Shown here: piece after piece, positions 18,062-27,814 of the stretch
How the letters are laid out: each line of letters starts with the position of its first letter
How positions within the stretch are numbered: the first letter of the stretch is position 1
From: Acidobacteriota bacterium
GTDB lineage: Bacteria > Acidobacteriota > Vicinamibacteria > Vicinamibacterales > UBA8438
Length of the DNA stretch: 64,000 nt
Direction: 5' to 3'
Assembly (NCBI GenBank): GCA_009861545.1
Contig: VXME01000115.1
Span: 1-64,000 of the forward strand
The notes under the pieces: generated by a model
Told to the model about the DNA's origin: nothing
The model's database searches: none
What the model saw: only the letters and a program-made list of their open reading frames with translations
Position numbers and translations under genes: made by a program

Positions 18062-18434
18062 TCGGCACGGCTGGGGTCACCGCAAACGCTGCCGATAGCC
18101 GGCGCCGCCGCGGTGGCCGCGCACGCGGGGCGGGGATCGATAGCGCGGAATGCGGTGCGGATGGAACCGCGGCGCGGGTGTACCAAGTCCGCGCCGCGCC
18201 CCACGGGGACGAGCCCGTCCCCTTCGGCGGAAGACAACGCAGGATGTATCGGCCGCGGTCGCTCCGATCTTTACCCCGGCGTCCGCAATCACCGCCGTGC
18301 ACGCCGGCCGCGTAGTCCGATCGACCGGCCGGCTCTCGGTGCGTGTCCGCGCGCTGCAGCCGCCGCCTTGCGAGGCAAACCGAGAACGGTTACGGTAGTC
18401 TTCATCGACCATGGGAAGCTCGAGAGGATTCCTC
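18062..18434. other. Intergenic region, 373 bases, no gene recognised
   Basis: I see no coding region with family resemblance on either strand. GGGGAC and GTCCCC at 18205-18222 make a 6-base stem with a 6-base loop, without a following T run, so it is at most a weak terminator. A promoter for the cytochrome gene should lie in the last 100 bases, but no convincing -35/-10 pair is visible. Confidence 0.5.
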
Positions 18435-19388
18435 ATGCGCCTGATTCGACCGGGCCGTACGGCAGCTCGCCGCGTGCGAGCCGCCGCGTCGTGCGCAGGC
18501 GCGCTCGCCGCGGCGTTCGCGCTTGCCGGACACACCGTTCAGTCCCAGACTCTGGCGGACGGCGTGTACACGGCCGGGCAGGCGGCACGCGGGCAGCAGG
18601 TCTATCAGGCTCAGTGCGCCGTCTGCCACGGCGACGCGCTCGAAGGCAGCGTCGGCCCGCCGCTGGCCGGAGACGGCTTCCTCTCGATCTGGGGCGCGCG
18701 ACCGCTGGTGGAGCTCGTAGACAAGATCCACTACACCATGCCGCTCGAGGCGCCGGCGCCGCTGTCGCGGCAGGAGTCCATCGACCTGACGGCCTACGTC
18801 CTCCGGGCCGGCGATTTCCCCACCGGAGAAGCCGAGCTGACCGACGGCATGCTGGCCGGCATCGTGCTCCCCGCGCCGCCGGCCGCCGCAGGGTCCGCGG
18901 CCGGCGGCGACCTAGCCCTCGTCCCGGTGGCCAACCTCGCCCAGTTGATGCGGGCCGTCACCTTTCCCAACTCGAACGCGATTTTTAACGTGCAGCTCAA
19001 GGATCCCGGAGACCAGGTGCTGCCGGCGCCGGGGGCCCGGCCCTTCGACTACGTCGAGTGGGGATCGACGGTCTATCCCGGATGGCAGGCGATCGATCTG
19101 GCCGCGCTGGCGCTCGTCGAATCCACGCCGCTCTTCCTGGCGCCGGGGCGTCGCTGCGAGAACGGCAGGCCCGTGCCCGTGGATCGGGCCGACTGGAAGC
19201 AGTACACCGAAGAGCTCGTGGAAGCAGGGCGGGCCGCCTACCGGGCGTCGCAGTCCCGGAGCGTCGATGCCGTGATCGAGGTCGCCGACCAGCTCAACAA
19301 CGCCTGCGACAACTGCCACACGATCTATCGTGACGCGGGCGCCGAAGGGAGCGGGCAGGGAGCGGACCGCTGCCCGGAGATTCCCTGA
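18435..19388 (+). CDS. Two-heme c-type cytochrome, exported
   Basis: A 317-residue secreted protein with an Ala-rich signal peptide (about residues 14-37). The first heme site CAVCH is at 61-65 in a class I cytochrome fold, with a likely Met ligand in IHYTMPLEAP. After a linker of about 180 residues, a second site CDNCH lies at 291-295, only 22 residues from the C-terminus, as in class II (cytochrome c-prime type) proteins. The start at 18435 has AGAGG 7 bases upstream; an ATG 24 bases earlier is in frame but less well placed. It probably acts as a periplasmic electron carrier or oxidase subunit. Three exported proteins follow on the same strand with gaps under 50 bases. Confidence 0.85.
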   Translation: MRLIRPGRTAARRVRAAASCAGALAAAFALAGHTVQSQTLADGVYTAGQAARGQQVYQAQCAVCHGDALEGSVGPPLAGDGFLSIWGARPLVELVDKIHYTMPLEAPAPLSRQESIDLTAYVLRAGDFPTGEAELTDGMLAGIVLPAPPAAAGSAAGGDLALVPVANLAQLMRAVTFPNSNAIFNVQLKDPGDQVLPAPGARPFDYVEWGSTVYPGWQAIDLAALALVESTPLFLAPGRRCENGRPVPVDRADWKQYTEELVEAGRAAYRASQSRSVDAVIEVADQLNNACDNCHTIYRDAGAEGSGQGADRCPEIP

Positions 19389-21670: not shown

Positions 21671-22747
21671 TTACGGCAGCAACGCCGCGCCGAGTGCCGC
21701 CGCGGCGACCAGTTGCCACCAGAGTTGCGTCCGCTCCTTCAGCAGCAGCGTGCCCGCGCCCAGCACGACGGCGGCGGCGAGCAGGAAGTACCAGTAGAGA
21801 TCGGTGAACGACTCCTGCCGCTGGACCACGCCGCGGGCTGAGCGCTGCACGTCGGAGAGGATGCGCAGGGCCACGACGTGATCCGGCTCGGAACCCAGCT
21901 CGAAGTACCGGCCGCCGCCCGCCTGCGCGATGGCGCGCAGCGAGCGCCGGTCGAGCACCGAGTGAATGGGCGGCTCCGGCTCCTGGTAGCGCCCGACGGG
22001 AAGCTGCGGGATGAAGCCGCCGCCGGTGGTGCCCACACCGATGACGTAGACGCGGATGTTGCGGTCCTGGGCCAGCTTCAGCGAGCGAGCCACCGCCCCG
22101 CTCCACGCCTGCCCGTCCGAGAGCACAACGAACGCCCGCGCGCCGAGCCGGGGGCCGTACAGCTCCTCGTCCTTCTCGATCATCCGGACGCCCCACGCGA
22201 GCCCGTCCTCGATATTGGTATTCCAGCTCGTGTCGTCGCGCAGCCGGAACGGCGGCTCGTCGGCCAGGTGATCGAGGAAAAAGAAGAGCGCGTTCGGATC
22301 GCTGGTCAGCCGCACCTGCGGCGCCGCGCGGTGGGCGAACAGCGCCAGCGCCACCCGCTCGCGGCGCCAGCCGAGCACCGCGGCTAAGGACCGGACCCAC
22401 CCCACCGAGCGCTGCCAGCGGGCGGGCTCGACGGCGGCCACCCGCATCGACGTCGAGCCGTCCTGCAGGACCACGAAGTCGACGCCCGCCGTCTCGGTCA
22501 CCGACACCAGGGCCTGCGGCCGGGCCAGCGCCACGATCGCCAACGCCGCCGCTACGTTGACCGCGAGCCAGAACCCCAGGCCCCCGGCAAACCGGTGGCG
22601 CTGCGGCACGGGCGCCGTCCGCGACGCCTGCAGCCTGCGCACGTCACGGCGCCGCCGCGCAAGCTGCCAGAGCCATACCGGCAGCAGAATCGCCGGCACG
22701 GCCAGCAACCACAGCAGCAGCGGCTCCTCGAAGCGAATCGGCGGCAT
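21671..22747 (-). CDS. VWA domain membrane protein, MxaL/BatA-like
   Basis: A 358-residue protein with an N-terminal BatA-type helix pair, a von Willebrand factor A domain, and a C-terminal helix after FTDLYWYFLLAAAVVLGAGTL. The metal site (MIDAS) motif is intact as DGSTS in VDFVVLQDGSTSM. It is the sixth gene of a MoxR, DUF58, membrane protein, VWA, small membrane protein, VWA series. In methylotrophs the gene at this position of the mxa operon is mxaL, needed for maturation of calcium- and PQQ-dependent methanol dehydrogenase. The ATG at 22747 follows the previous stop by 4 bases. Confidence 0.85.
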   Translation of the reverse strand: MPPIRFEEPLLLWLLAVPAILLPVWLWQLARRRRDVRRLQASRTAPVPQRHRFAGGLGFWLAVNVAAALAIVALARPQALVSVTETAGVDFVVLQDGSTSMRVAAVEPARWQRSVGWVRSLAAVLGWRRERVALALFAHRAAPQVRLTSDPNALFFFLDHLADEPPFRLRDDTSWNTNIEDGLAWGVRMIEKDEELYGPRLGARAFVVLSDGQAWSGAVARSLKLAQDRNIRVYVIGVGTTGGGFIPQLPVGRYQEPEPPIHSVLDRRSLRAIAQAGGGRYFELGSEPDHVVALRILSDVQRSARGVVQRQESFTDLYWYFLLAAAVVLGAGTLLLKERTQLWWQLVAAAALGAALLP

Positions 22748-22751
22748 GCTC

Positions 22752-23435
22752 CTATCCGCGCCTCCGGATGCGGTCCCCCGCGCCGAGGGTCGGCGACTCG
22801 TCCATCTCCGGGTCCACGTCGCGCTGCACCGGCACGTAGATCTCGATCTCTTCCAGCTCGCCGTCCTCCGGCGCTTCCCCTTCGCGGCCATGCTGGCTGC
22901 GCGGCGTCGCCGGGATCTCCGCTCCCGAGGCGATGTCCGCGCGGAGTCTGAGCAGGTACTCGTAGTTGTAGGCCGCGTCCAGGTGGCCCGGGCTCTCCTG
23001 CAACACGCCCAGGTAGACGTCGATCGCGCCGTCCAGCGCGCGCAGCACCTGCTCGCGGTCGGCCTCCGGATCCAGCGCGGCGCGGGCCGCCGCGTTGGCC
23101 AGCACGAACTGCAGCCGCAAGTTCCCGGCCGCGTCCGGCGGCGCGTCGGCGTAGTCGGCCAGCAAGCCGGCGTAGTCGCCCCGCCAGTAGCGCAGCGCCG
23201 CGCGGCGCGTCTCCACGTCGGCCCGCGTGCCGCCGAACAGCCACGGCGCCGTTCCCGCGACGTCCAGGGAGCGCTCCAGCTCGGTGTAAGCGGTCTCCGC
23301 GCTGTCGAAAGAGAACGTCGCGATCTGCTGCTCGGCCCGCGCCACGCGGCGATCGAGGCGGCCGGCCGCCGCCACCGCGGCCGCGATCCCGCCCAGGATC
23401 AGCGCCGTGACCAGGTACTGGAATGCCGCCTTCAT
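22752..23435 (-). CDS. Small membrane protein, MxaK-like position
   Basis: A 227-residue protein with one N-terminal helix (FQYLVTALILGGIAAAVAAAG) and a helical, TPR-like periplasmic or cytoplasmic part in which EQQIATFSFDSAETAYTELE and ALRYWRGDYAGLLADYADAP can be aligned with tetratricopeptide pairs. The last 40 residues are acidic. It lies between two VWA genes, with a 1-base stop/start overlap upstream. That place corresponds to mxaK in mxaRSACKL operons. The sequence itself gives no more than a membrane-anchored helical protein; the mxaK call is from gene order. Confidence 0.65.
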   Translation of the reverse strand: MKAAFQYLVTALILGGIAAAVAAAGRLDRRVARAEQQIATFSFDSAETAYTELERSLDVAGTAPWLFGGTRADVETRRAALRYWRGDYAGLLADYADAPPDAAGNLRLQFVLANAAARAALDPEADREQVLRALDGAIDVYLGVLQESPGHLDAAYNYEYLLRLRADIASGAEIPATPRSQHGREGEAPEDGELEEIEIYVPVQRDVDPEMDESPTLGAGDRIRRRG

Positions 23436-24532
23436 CAGGGGAACCTCCGGAAGTGCCGGACACCGAGGGTCAGGGTCGCCGCGGTCAGCCAGAGCAGGAC
23501 CGCGGCCAGCGCGAACGGACCGAAGCGCGGCTCGTGGGCGGTGTAGCGCCGGACGCGGATGCGCCCCTCGGCCAGCTCGTCGATCTCGTGGATGGCGGCG
23601 AGAATGGCGTCCTCGTTCTCCGCCGGAAAGAACTTCCCGCCGGTCCGCTCCACGGCCAGCTTCCACTGCTGGTCGGAGATGACCTCGCCGAGCGCCTGGT
23701 CGTAGGCGGTGCGGATGAAGTAGACCGGAATCTGGTTGTCGGCGGCTTCCTGCATGATCGCGTCCAGCGTCAGGTCCTCGAACCGCGCGTGGGTGTCCTG
23801 CCCGTCGCTGAAGATCACCATCAGGTTGCCGGCCGCGCCGAGGAAGTCGAACGTCCGGAAGAGCTGCACGCCGCGGCTGATGGCGTTCATCACCAGGGTG
23901 CCGTGGTCCGGAAAGCGGCGGTACTCCTCCGGGGTGCCGATCAGGCTGATGCTGAGCAGGATGTTCTCGTAGTCGGTGGTGAACGGGGTGACGATGTACG
24001 CCTCGTTGCCGAACTGCACCAGCGACGTCAGGTCGTGGTACGGCCCCTCCATGCGGCGCCGGACGAAGTACTCCGCGGCGGCGACGTTGGCGAGGAAGGT
24101 GTTCCCCGCCGCCAGCCGCTGGGTCGCGAAAGCGGTGTTCATGCTGAGTGACGCGTCGATCAGTATCGCGATGCGGTGGCCCGGATACGATTCCTCCTCC
24201 TGCACGAGCGCGGTGTGCGGGTCGGCCAGGGCCACGGCGAACAGCGCGAAGCCGGCCAGGAAGATGGCGAACGTGACATGCCGGACCGACGCCAGGTGCG
24301 CCCGCGACGCGAGCCGACGCGCCGGCAGGGCGGGCAGGACGATGTTCGCCGCACCCGGGGTCCGCGGCCGCGCATGGCGCCAGAGCAGCATGGCGAGGGC
24401 GACGACGGCGAGCCCGCCGGCCACGACGACGGCCGCGTCACGCCGGAGCAGTGAAAGCCCCGCGCCGTCGAGCAACCGGAGCTCGGCCAGCATCTCGCCC
24501 AGCCGCGCGAGCATCGCGCTCAAGGTCTCCAT
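23435..24532 (-). CDS. VWA domain membrane protein, MxaC-like
   Basis: A 365-residue protein with two N-terminal helices, a VWA domain with intact MIDAS motif DASLS in HRIAILIDASLSM, a conserved FGNEAYIVTPFTTDYENI segment and VIFSDGQDTHARF, and a C-terminal helix. The start could be the ATG at 24532 or one five codons upstream at 24547; both overlap the preceding gene. In mxa operons this position is mxaC. Together with the MoxR and DUF58 proteins such VWA proteins are thought to insert metal or open protein complexes in the periplasm. Confidence 0.83.
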   Translation of the reverse strand: METLSAMLARLGEMLAELRLLDGAGLSLLRRDAAVVVAGGLAVVALAMLLWRHARPRTPGAANIVLPALPARRLASRAHLASVRHVTFAIFLAGFALFAVALADPHTALVQEEESYPGHRIAILIDASLSMNTAFATQRLAAGNTFLANVAAAEYFVRRRMEGPYHDLTSLVQFGNEAYIVTPFTTDYENILLSISLIGTPEEYRRFPDHGTLVMNAISRGVQLFRTFDFLGAAGNLMVIFSDGQDTHARFEDLTLDAIMQEAADNQIPVYFIRTAYDQALGEVISDQQWKLAVERTGGKFFPAENEDAILAAIHEIDELAEGRIRVRRYTAHEPRFGPFALAAVLLWLTAATLTLGVRHFRRFP

Positions 24533-25851
24533 CGGTTCGCGGCCCACTGCTTCCAGTTGCGGTACAGGCGACTCGCGCGGCGCACCGGCTCGAACAGCTC
24601 GACCTGCAGCGACTGCAACACCTCGATTCCCGCCTCCAGGTGGGCCGCCAGGTCACTCGCCGCCACAGCGGGAGTCGGATTACCGGCCGGCACCTCGGAC
24701 ACGGAGCCGTACCGCGCCCCCGCGAAGCCGGCCAGGCCGACGCGCAACGTCTCGATGGCGGGTGCGCCCTCCGCGGACTCGACACGCACGCGCGGCAGCT
24801 CGCCGTCGATGTCCCGCGCGGTGAGCGCCGAGGAGACGAAGACCGTCTCCCGACCGAACAGCCCCCGCCGCACCGGCAGCCGGCCTTCCGGATCGACCGC
24901 CTTCCCGGCGACCGCCGCGCCGCCGACCGCCGTGCCGGCGGCCCGCTGCGCCACGGGCCGTCCCAGCGCCAGCGCCGCGGCAATGCGAAGCGCTGCCAGC
25001 GCCCGCGCCACCAGGTCGCCGGTCCAGCCTTGCGCCGCCGTCGCGTCCCGCACCGCCCGCAGCTCGCCGAGCGCCGTGCGGGCCACCCGCCAGGCGGGCA
25101 CGCCGTCCTCGCGCACCGCCGCCACGCCGCGCCACTCGCGCCGCACCCCGACCGCTCCGAGCAGGAGCACCCCGGCGGCCGCCACCCCGATCGCCATGGC
25201 TGCGATGCCGATCAGGTTCGCCCGGAACAAGCGCGCCTCGACGTCGCCGAACGTCTCGCCCGGCAGCTCCCGGATATCGACCGCCGTGGCCGGCACGAGC
25301 GACAGCACCCGGACCGACTCGGGCGGCAGGACATACGCCAGCTCCCGCCCCTCGGTCGCCGTGCCCCCATCGATCGAGCGCTCGATGCGGTAGCGGAGCT
25401 CCAGCGCCGGCAGCTCCACGTCGAGGCCGAAGTAGTCCTCGCCGATGATCCGCAGCGCGTAGCGGTACTGGAAGAAACGGCGCGGCCCGCGCACCACGTC
25501 GTCGTAGCGCTCGCCGTCGAGCACCTCGAACGGCGACACGCCGAGCGTCTCCGGCTCGAGCCACGCCAGGTCGGGGACCACGCGCGCCGTCTCCGTATCG
25601 ACCACGGCGCAGGTCAGCACCATGTCGAAGCGCTCGCCGACGTGGACCGCGTGACTCGCGATGCGCCGCCAGCACTGCATCGCCTCGACCGCCACCATGT
25701 CCGGTCCCGGCTGGGCCGCGGCGGGCGCGGGCCAGAGAGCGGCGACCAGCAGCAGGCCTCCGCCCGGAAGTCCGCGATTCCACATCGCGCCACGACGACA
25801 CGGACGAGCGATCCCGCCATGCACTCCCGATCTCCGACGCCTCTGCAACAC
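24520..25851 (-). CDS. Membrane-anchored exported protein, MxaA-like position
   Basis: A 443-residue protein with a signal peptide ending PAPAAAQ, a beta-rich periplasmic domain of about 170 residues (DMVAVEAMQCWRRIASHAVH to ELAYVLPPESVRVL), one helix at LFRANLIGIAAMAIGVAAAG, and a cytoplasmic C-terminal helical half. The GTG at 25851 (or TTG at 25848) follows GGGGAGG; a later ATG at 25785 would shorten the leader. Gene order puts it where mxaA sits. The bare sequence is not a strong match to any named family that I can verify by eye. Confidence 0.7.
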   Translation of the reverse strand: MLQRRRRSGVHGGIARPCRRGAMWNRGLPGGGLLLVAALWPAPAAAQPGPDMVAVEAMQCWRRIASHAVHVGERFDMVLTCAVVDTETARVVPDLAWLEPETLGVSPFEVLDGERYDDVVRGPRRFFQYRYALRIIGEDYFGLDVELPALELRYRIERSIDGGTATEGRELAYVLPPESVRVLSLVPATAVDIRELPGETFGDVEARLFRANLIGIAAMAIGVAAAGVLLLGAVGVRREWRGVAAVREDGVPAWRVARTALGELRAVRDATAAQGWTGDLVARALAALRIAAALALGRPVAQRAAGTAVGGAAVAGKAVDPEGRLPVRRGLFGRETVFVSSALTARDIDGELPRVRVESAEGAPAIETLRVGLAGFAGARYGSVSEVPAGNPTPAVAASDLAAHLEAGIEVLQSLQVELFEPVRRASRLYRNWKQWAANRWRP

Positions 25852-25865
25852 GCTGCCTCCCCTCG

Positions 25866-26777
25866 TCAGCGCTTCCGCAGGCGGCGGTCGGCCAGGAAGT
25901 CGACCACCTGGTGATGGAACCGCTCGGCGTCGGCGCCCAGCCGCAGCACCTCAAGGCCGAGGCCCACCGCCTGCGCTTCCACCCCATCCTGCCACGCCGC
26001 CACCCGCTCTGCGAGCCGGCGCACGTCCTCCGCCGACAGCAGCCGCGACTCGCCCGTCTCGACGTCGCAGCCCTCGACCCAGCCCGCCGACAGCTCCGGC
26101 AGCTCGAAGGCATGGCGGCTGTCGATCAGCACCACGAACACGTCGTGGGTCGCGTTCAGCGCCAGCAGCTCCTCGAGCAACGGCTCCGTGTCCTCGAAGA
26201 GAAAGTCCGACACCACCGGCACCATCGACGGCTTGCGCAGCAGGCCGAGAAAGCTGTCGTCGATCCGCCGCGGCTCGTGTGCCGAGCGCTCCAGCACCAG
26301 GTCCTGATACGCCTCCAGGCAGTGGATCGCGTGGTTCCGGCCGACCTGCGGCCGCACCAGCAGCCGCCGCGACCGCGCATCGAACGTGATGAGGCCCACC
26401 CGGTCCTGGAAGAACGCGCCGGCCAGGGCCAGCGTGCCCACGGTCCGGGCGATGACGGAGGCGATCGGCGCGCCCGCGGCCCCACAGCGGGTCGACAGCG
26501 ACGTGTCGGCCACGATGACGAGGCGCGCCGTGCTCTGCTGCTCGAACTCGCGGGTCACCAGCGGGCTGAAGTTGGTCAGGGTCGACTGCGGCCAGTCGAT
26601 CGACGTCAGCCGGTCGCCGGGCTGCCAGTCGCGCAGTCCCGCGAACTCGAACCCCGCGCCCTGGAAGACGCTGGGATGCGCGCCCGCCATGTACTCGCGC
26701 ATGCGCCGCACGATGACCAGCTCGATGTCCTGAACCTCGGTCCAGCTCACGAGCTCGTCGCCGGTGCGGACGCTCAC
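25866..26777 (-). CDS. DUF58 protein, MxaS-like
   Basis: A 303-residue DUF58 protein. The hallmark is EFAGLRDWQPGDRLTSIDWP near residue 45, followed by a VWA-like fold with ARLVIVADTSLST (MIDAS-like DTSLS), and VVSDFLFED later. The GTG start overlaps the MoxR TGA (GTGA). DUF58 proteins are obligate partners of MoxR AAA ATPases. In the mxa operon the corresponding gene is mxaS. It probably acts as an adaptor between the ATPase and the VWA membrane proteins. Confidence 0.9.
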   Translation of the reverse strand: MSVRTGDELVSWTEVQDIELVIVRRMREYMAGAHPSVFQGAGFEFAGLRDWQPGDRLTSIDWPQSTLTNFSPLVTREFEQQSTARLVIVADTSLSTRCGAAGAPIASVIARTVGTLALAGAFFQDRVGLITFDARSRRLLVRPQVGRNHAIHCLEAYQDLVLERSAHEPRRIDDSFLGLLRKPSMVPVVSDFLFEDTEPLLEELLALNATHDVFVVLIDSRHAFELPELSAGWVEGCDVETGESRLLSAEDVRRLAERVAAWQDGVEAQAVGLGLEVLRLGADAERFHHQVVDFLADRRLRKR

Positions 26778-27814
26778 GGGATCGGCACCTGCTCGATGAT
26801 CTCGCCGATGACGGCGTCGACCGAGACCCCCTGACCGGCCGCGTGCGGCGCCAGCCAGACGCGGTGGCCGAGCACGTAGCCGGCCAGGTCCTGCACGTCC
26901 TCCGGGTACACCTCCGCCCGTCCCCGCGCGAGCAGCGCCCACACCTTCACCAGCCGCCCCCAGCAGATCGTCGCGCGCGGCGATCCGCCCAGATCGACGT
27001 AGCGCTCCACCAGCTCCGACGGCGAGCGCCGCCGCCAGTCCGTCTCCTCGTCGTAGGGCCGCGAGGCCGCCACCAGCCGCTGGATGTAGCGGGCGATGGC
27101 GTCGTGCAGAAAGACCCGCTCGGTGATGCTCGACCGCAGCTCGACCACCCGCTCCTTCGACATCAACCCGTCGAGCGATACCTTCTTGAAGTCGAAACCG
27201 ACCAGCCGCTCCTCCTCCTCCGGCGGCAGGTAGCCGATGTTCACCATGATGGCGAAGCGGTCGGTCGCCGCCTCCGACAGGGGGAAGGTCCCCTGCCCCA
27301 GCTCGATCGGGTTCATCGTGGCGATGGCGAAACTGAAGGACGGCAGGCGGTAGGTGTCCTTGCCGACGGTCACCGTGCGGTCCTGCAGACCCTCCAGAAA
27401 CGCGCTCTGCGACTTCAGCGGGATGCGGTTGATCTCGTCGAGCAGGATCACCTCGGCCGAGGCCAGCGGACCGAACTCGGTGATGAACTGCCCGGTCGCC
27501 GGATTGATCATCTGGAAGCCGATCACCTCGGTCGGCTGCAGGTCCGCGCGGCCCTGCAGGCGCGCGAACTTCGCGCCGCTGATGGCGGCCAGGATCACGC
27601 CGAAGAACGTCTTGCCCACTCCCGGCACGCCGCGCAACAGCAGGTTGCCGGCGTTGACCTGCCGGTTCTCATCGGCATCGTACGTGGTCGGGATCTCCGA
27701 CAGCAGGACGGTGTTGGCCAGCACCTTCTCGCGCTCGTAGCCGACGAGCGCCTTGGCGCCCTCGGCGACGATCGCAGCGTGGAAATCGATGGCCTCCTGC
27801 AGATCCGCGTGCAT
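26774..27814 (-). CDS. MoxR-family AAA ATPase, MxaR-like
   Basis: A 346-residue AAA+ ATPase: Walker A GVPGVGKT at residues 62-69, Walker B VILLDEINR at 122-130 and sensor ATMNPIELGQGTFPLSEAATDRF, the classical MoxR segment. It is the first gene of the six-gene operon and shows no strong promoter in the 130 bases before it. MoxR proteins act as chaperone-like machines that mature metal- or cofactor-containing enzymes; in methylotrophs MxaR works with MxaS, A, C, K and L. This one is the anchor for reading the cluster as mxa-type rather than Bat-type, because of the gene order. Confidence 0.93.
   Translation of the reverse strand: MHADLQEAIDFHAAIVAEGAKALVGYEREKVLANTVLLSEIPTTYDADENRQVNAGNLLLRGVPGVGKTFFGVILAAISGAKFARLQGRADLQPTEVIGFQMINPATGQFITEFGPLASAEVILLDEINRIPLKSQSAFLEGLQDRTVTVGKDTYRLPSFSFAIATMNPIELGQGTFPLSEAATDRFAIMVNIGYLPPEEEERLVGFDFKKVSLDGLMSKERVVELRSSITERVFLHDAIARYIQRLVAASRPYDEETDWRRRSPSELVERYVDLGGSPRATICWGRLVKVWALLARGRAEVYPEDVQDLAGYVLGHRVWLAPHAAGQGVSVDAVIGEIIEQVPIP

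Follow-up and report, generated by a model that had tools for sequence, protein, structure and literature searches.

The mxaRSACKL genes help methylotrophs to complete their methanol-oxidising enzyme. They are known from the calcium-dependent methanol dehydrogenase, and their biochemical job is poorly understood. Methylotroph plasmids of Methylocystis, Methylobacterium, and Paracoccus were used as the true mxaRSACKL reference, and the annotated order after mxaFJGI in these plasmids is MoxR, DUF58, MxaA, vWA, MxaK, and vWA. We analysed a window, the whole stretch of 64,000 nucleotides, that lies on contig C115 in a draft genome of 6.35 Mb (Acidobacteriota, Vicinamibacterales, family f1). ORF and domain calls place six minus-strand genes (27814–21671), denoted R, S, A, C, K, and L, in this window. 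The coordinates and the MoxR-DUF58-A-VWA-K-VWA order given in the preliminary description were correct, and the mxaR-S-A-C-K-L order that it had recognised equals that of the annotated clusters of the three methylotroph genera.

R (26774–27814, minus strand, 346 aa) is a MoxR-family AAA+ ATPase (AAA_3 PF07726, E = 2.4e-34; AAA_lid_2 PF17863, E = 6.6e-13) with intact Walker A (GVPGVGKT) and Walker B (ILLDEIN) motifs. S (25866–26777, minus strand, 303 aa) is a DUF58 protein (PF01882, E = 6.1e-19) carrying a MIDAS-like DTSLS motif. C (23435–24532, minus strand, 365 aa; PF13519, E = 3.4e-7) and L (21671–22747, minus strand, 358 aa; PF00092, E = 2.7e-8) are VWA membrane proteins with the intact MIDAS motifs DASLS and DGSTS, respectively. 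The Pfam and NCBIfam search gave no matches for A and K. The alignment and the AlphaFold model (mean pLDDT 81) of A (24520–25785, minus strand, 421 aa) predict a signal peptide, an Ig-like domain, a TM helix, and a helical C-terminal domain; the two invariant Cys residues both lie in the Ig-like domain, and Foldseek with this model returned generic Ig-like folds only. For K (22752–23435, minus strand, 227 aa), hhalign and the model point to a TM helix and TPR-like helices, and the Foldseek E-values were weak. The overlapping starts and stops described earlier are present at R/S (4 nt, GTGA, with the GTG start of S overlapping the R stop), A/C (13 nt), and C/K (1 nt), and K and L abut with a gap of 4 nt. 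S and A are the exception and are separated by 80 nt with the ATG at 25785, or by 14 nt with an upstream GTG (the open frame of A extends to 25851). The promoter/terminator scan gave no promoter-like site or other usable signal and, as had been described, no dehydrogenase lies within or next to the operon.

The conservation of the operon was investigated in 149 genomes of the Vicinamibacterales (order sample), 396 genomes of the phylum (phylum sample), and 39 neighbourhoods of window-type loci of up to 20 kb. The six-gene arrangement is far beyond chance, because 29 of the 39 related loci have all six genes in the identical order. S is absent in five neighbourhoods, all from one genus, R and S are absent in two from another genus, and three neighbourhoods are interrupted by a contig end. 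The A protein was found in 69 of the 149 genomes of the order sample, and in the phylum sample it was confined to the Vicinamibacterales, with one weak match elsewhere (E = 6e-4). Searching with the A protein brought up named relatives that are MAGs of Acidobacteriota, and several of these carry the title Vicinamibacterales. The one exception is a record titled Bifidobacterium breve, which is evidently mislabelled.

The neighbours of the operon in the window (a c-type cytochrome gene at 18411–19388 and DUF6152, DUF2272, SMP-30-like, and desaturase genes) are not conserved among the relatives, and a local client was therefore rejected. DUF2272 is the sole searched neighbour kept in the closest relative (L065), whose A protein is 88% identical. 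A PQQ dehydrogenase adjoins the operon in several relatives (L067, L070, L072, L080, L087, L091, L099, and L101). It was rejected as a conserved neighbour, since the rate in family f1 (3/14) is about that expected from approximately 50 such genes per 6.35 Mb; four of the loci outside f1 belong to one genus. Throughout the 39 neighbourhoods, no conserved dehydrogenase or cytochrome gene stands beside the window type, and no pqq or pqqU gene lies near it.

The PQQ dehydrogenase that the preliminary description had expected elsewhere in the genome is present. Nine matches to TIGR03075 exceed the cut-off, and the genome encodes approximately 50 near-full-length PQQ-dehydrogenase homologues. The best of these is a XoxF (677 bits to TIGR03075; closest PDB entry the lanthanide enzyme 4mae, 796 bits), which disposes of the objection, raised in advance, that the genome might contain no PQQ dehydrogenase. 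The gene beside XoxF can be read from its sequence as XoxJ-like. The D-x-D lanthanide signature was found in 21 of the 21 homologues checked, and the genome scan that had been proposed for xoxF and pqq genes gave, besides XoxF, pqqB, pqqC, and pqqE over the cut-off. For marine genomes, Acidobacteria among them, a published study describes large sets of lanthanide quinoproteins, with as many as 70 in one genome (PMC11996626). PQQ is scavenged by many organisms (PMC12124388), so missing PQQ synthesis is compatible with a quinoprotein client.

A second R-S-A-C-K-L set was met through a MoxR match near pqqB. This cassette is linked to PQQ synthesis or import; it is the main discovery of the analysis and a more valuable lead than the window operon. 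On contig C8 of the window genome (L061), pqqB, pqqC, and pqqE are followed by the second set and then by a thioredoxin-like gene, and the PQQ dehydrogenase on this contig is cut by the contig end. The C8-type cassette occurs in 26 of the 149 genomes, all of family f1 (26 of the 28 f1 genomes), and each of the 26 has pqqC or a PqqU-like importer. In 19 of the 26, pqqC or pqqU is on the same contig as the cassette, and in the remainder they are on different contigs. According to the coordinates, the cassette lies 2.2–4.5 kb from pqqU in 13 genomes and 5–18 kb from pqqC in eight. Relatives without pqq genes have the cassette directly behind a PqqU-like TonB receptor. Along its whole length, this receptor aligns with E. 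coli PqqU (E = 5e-70), and the next different PDB receptor reaches 56 bits; its best family is NF041535 (PqqU; E = 2e-85), with a score that falls short of the equivalog cut-off. A protein of approximately 740 aa with a CxxCH motif precedes pqqU in the four loci examined. In the window genome, a homologue of this protein is encoded near XoxF. The occurrence of PqqU in the class Vicinamibacteria without PQQ synthesis has already been published (PMC12124388); we met no mention of its link to an RSACKL cassette in literature that was not searched for this link specifically.

The window and C8-type operons share the six genes and their order. In the hhalign comparisons, the window proteins matched the C8-type proteins with E-values of 8e-165 (R), 3e-82 (S), 5e-59 (C), 3e-37 (L), 5e-9 (K), and 2e-6 (A), and for none of the six did another RSACKL set in the comparison give a better profile match. 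In the DUF58 tree, the window type joins the C8 type (support 98/93) and not Mxa, on long branches that carry a warning for this grouping. Unlike the window operon, the C8-type operon is physically linked to genes that make or import PQQ, has a thioredoxin-like gene after L (in the window genome), and is found in f1 only. The window set is most likely the sister system of the C8-type operon.

PQQ-dehydrogenase homologues were found in 67 of the 69 genomes with the window type vs 42 of the 80 without it (p = 1e-10), an association of presence and absence that is confounded by phylogeny (shared ancestry). The association held outside f1 (43/45 and 38/76) and weakly within f6 (22/22 and 3/5, p = 0.03); within f2, no excess of PQQ-dehydrogenase homologues accompanied the window type. 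With respect to PQQ supply, no association with the window type was observed outside f1 (p = 0.62). pqqC was absent in 53 of the 69 window-type genomes, and, at the thresholds used, both pqqC and PqqU were absent in 37. Four genomes of the same family (G066, G079, G090, and G105), all drafts that are 85–94% complete, have a PQQ supply and many PQQ dehydrogenases, and the window type was not found in them. Likewise, 67 genomes outside the order in the phylum sample have PQQ dehydrogenases without the window family. A specific tie of the window operon to PQQ, as suggested at the outset, is not supported by these distributions, and the PQQ-linked set of this genome is the C8 operon.

We tentatively favour the reading that the window operon encodes a membrane-bound, ATP-driven MoxR-VWA maturation complex, the most likely client or clients of which are among the approximately 50 exported PQQ-dehydrogenase homologues. 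A cytosolic MoxR ring and the DUF58 protein would act on the exported enzyme by way of four membrane partners, namely the two VWA proteins (C and L), A with its Ig-like domain, and K with its TPR-like helices. ATP hydrolysis would then drive the remodelling or metal loading of this client, as in a chaperone or metal insertion system, and the client would be one or more of the exported, mostly lanthanide-type homologues. The quinoprotein client is a leading but unproven guess, which we put first in view of the PQQ link of the sister cassette and of the distribution data.

It is quite possible, however, that a complex of the same MoxR-VWA type serves another exported or membrane client, such as a haem or β-propeller protein, a terminal oxidase, or a metalloenzyme, and that the operon resembles mxaRSACKL in architecture alone. 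The clients of MoxR systems are diverse, as reported in a study of RavA-ViaA (PMC3893208). Such a client would agree with the missing link of the window type to pqq/pqqU or a dehydrogenase, with the 37 genomes without PQQ supply, and with the absence of the window type from relatives that use PQQ; furthermore, YncE-like propeller and CxxCH proteins adjoin some loci (L068, L069, L075, L088, L090, and L102). Against such a client, these neighbours do not recur at every locus, the sister operon that is architecturally closest has a link to PQQ, and nearly all window-type genomes (67/69) have PQQ-dehydrogenase homologues. A further version of the quinoprotein reading proposes two parallel RSACKL machines in the Vicinamibacterales, one genetically coupled to PQQ supply, made or imported, for lanthanide-type quinoproteins and the window one for another subset of the expanded quinoproteins of the order; we consider this version less likely than not.

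We regard it as improbable that the window operon is a Bat aerotolerance operon, meaning a usual stress system of the MoxR-BatA/B kind whose accessory genes have diverged. The Bat-order operon on contig C59 of the same genome shares with the window operon MoxR, DUF58, an A-position protein, the VWAs, and a TPR protein. R and S score higher against this operon than against Mxa (R, 148 vs 55–67 bits), and L matches it (51 bits) and not MxaL. The score difference for R says little, because with true MxaR, too, the Bat MoxR (131) outscores the R of the window operon (56). The preliminary description had held that best matches of A and K to Bat proteins would argue against its reading, and this objection stands in part: A aligns with the protein at the A position of the Bat operon (E = 2e-5), and K aligns with the Bat TPR protein (E = 5e-8) at least as well as with MxaK (E = 3.4e-7, probability 93%, over most of its length). 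However, neither BatD nor BatE was found among the six window genes in the Pfam and NCBIfam search, and K is placed between the two VWAs as in Mxa, whereas the Bat order is VWA-VWA-TPR-BatD-BatE. Moreover, the Bat-order operon already present on C59 is complete, with BatD and BatE.

A client from the acidobacterial "empty quinoprotein" group TIGR04528, which consists of PQQ-dehydrogenase-like propellers that are without PQQ by family name, would account for the operon in genomes lacking PQQ supply, and the group has four matches at E ≤ 1e-150 in the window genome and is present in many operon-bearing genomes, but it is also common in operon-less genomes (families f4, f12, f14, and f15) and does not reach E = 1e-150 in several operon-bearing ones (G015, G036, and G109), which makes this client very improbable.

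If the version with two parallel RSACKL machines is true, RSACKL would be a general quinoprotein-assembly system, including lanthanide enzymes and imported PQQ, and not a speciality of the calcium-methanol dehydrogenase. The pqq/pqqU-linked RSACKL cassette, in organisms in which every quinoprotein checked has the lanthanide signature, makes general quinoprotein loading by RSACKL directly testable. The coupling of RSACKL to PQQ import and the reason for the two copies in some lineages also become testable.

Compared with mxaRSACKL, the window operon has MoxR, DUF58, a signal/TM protein, a VWA, a TM-TPR protein, and a VWA in the same order on one strand, and C matches MxaC (E = 3e-17) in addition to the match between K and MxaK. 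Unlike the mxa genes, the window operon is not downstream of mxaFJGI, none of which is conserved in the 39 neighbourhoods, and it occurs in the Vicinamibacterales only in the samples used here. The supposed kinship of A with MxaA did not extend beyond layout, as no homology was detectable by hhalign (probability 0.5%, E = 0.13) against an MxaA profile sampled from Alphaproteobacteria only, and A (421 aa) is clearly longer than MxaA (267–315 aa). The R tree, which like the DUF58 tree carries long-branch warnings, gave four long branches that are not separated from each other. The window set is Mxa-RSACKL-like in architecture and is not filed as an Mxa member. Given these profile matches, a single MoxR-DUF58-VWA superfamily seems to comprise the Mxa and Bat systems and both acidobacterial sets as its branches.

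The source genome carries a second RSACKL operon on the minus strand of contig C8 (locus L061, 17476-5153), which adjoins the PQQ synthesis genes pqqB, pqqC, and pqqE. A thioredoxin-like gene lies at the end of this operon, and a PQQ dehydrogenase at the same locus is truncated by the contig end. In the related locus L142 (2188-13195), genes for a secreted protein of approximately 740 aa, a PqqU-like TonB receptor, and a C8-type RSACKL cassette form a co-directional cluster, which was likewise found in the relatives' loci L084, L141, and L143. The secreted protein contains a CxLCHQ motif in all four clusters, and an ion-channel gene follows the cluster in L141 and L142. A homologue of this protein is encoded in the source genome close to XoxF and a XoxJ-like gene (L062, contig C125, 1972-9159).

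PQQ dehydrogenases were also located near reduced forms of the window-type operon. The DUF58 gene is absent from the operon in L080, L087, L089, L091, and L101, which belong to one genus, and a PQQ dehydrogenase lies approximately 2-3 kb downstream; that of L101 has an N-terminal cytochrome domain. In L070 and L072, only A-C-K-L are left, with neither MoxR nor DUF58 nearby, and a PQQ dehydrogenase is divergent from A. Other neighbours of the window-type operon, in two families, were a YncE-like β-propeller and CxxCH secreted proteins (L068, L069, L075, L088, L090, and L102). The acidobacterial operon of L176 is in a record titled as a Bifidobacterium breve MAG, a label that is evidently wrong.

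Contig C92 of the source genome contains a CRISPR-like array (L136, 12630-16873) of more than 40 direct-repeat units, spaced mostly at 71-73 nt.

One product of the source genome (contig C133, 19255-20802) matched TIGR04528, the "acido-empty-quinoprotein" family, over the cut-off; the name of this family of PQQ-dehydrogenase-like propellers implies no PQQ, and the same genome also encodes PQQ synthesis.
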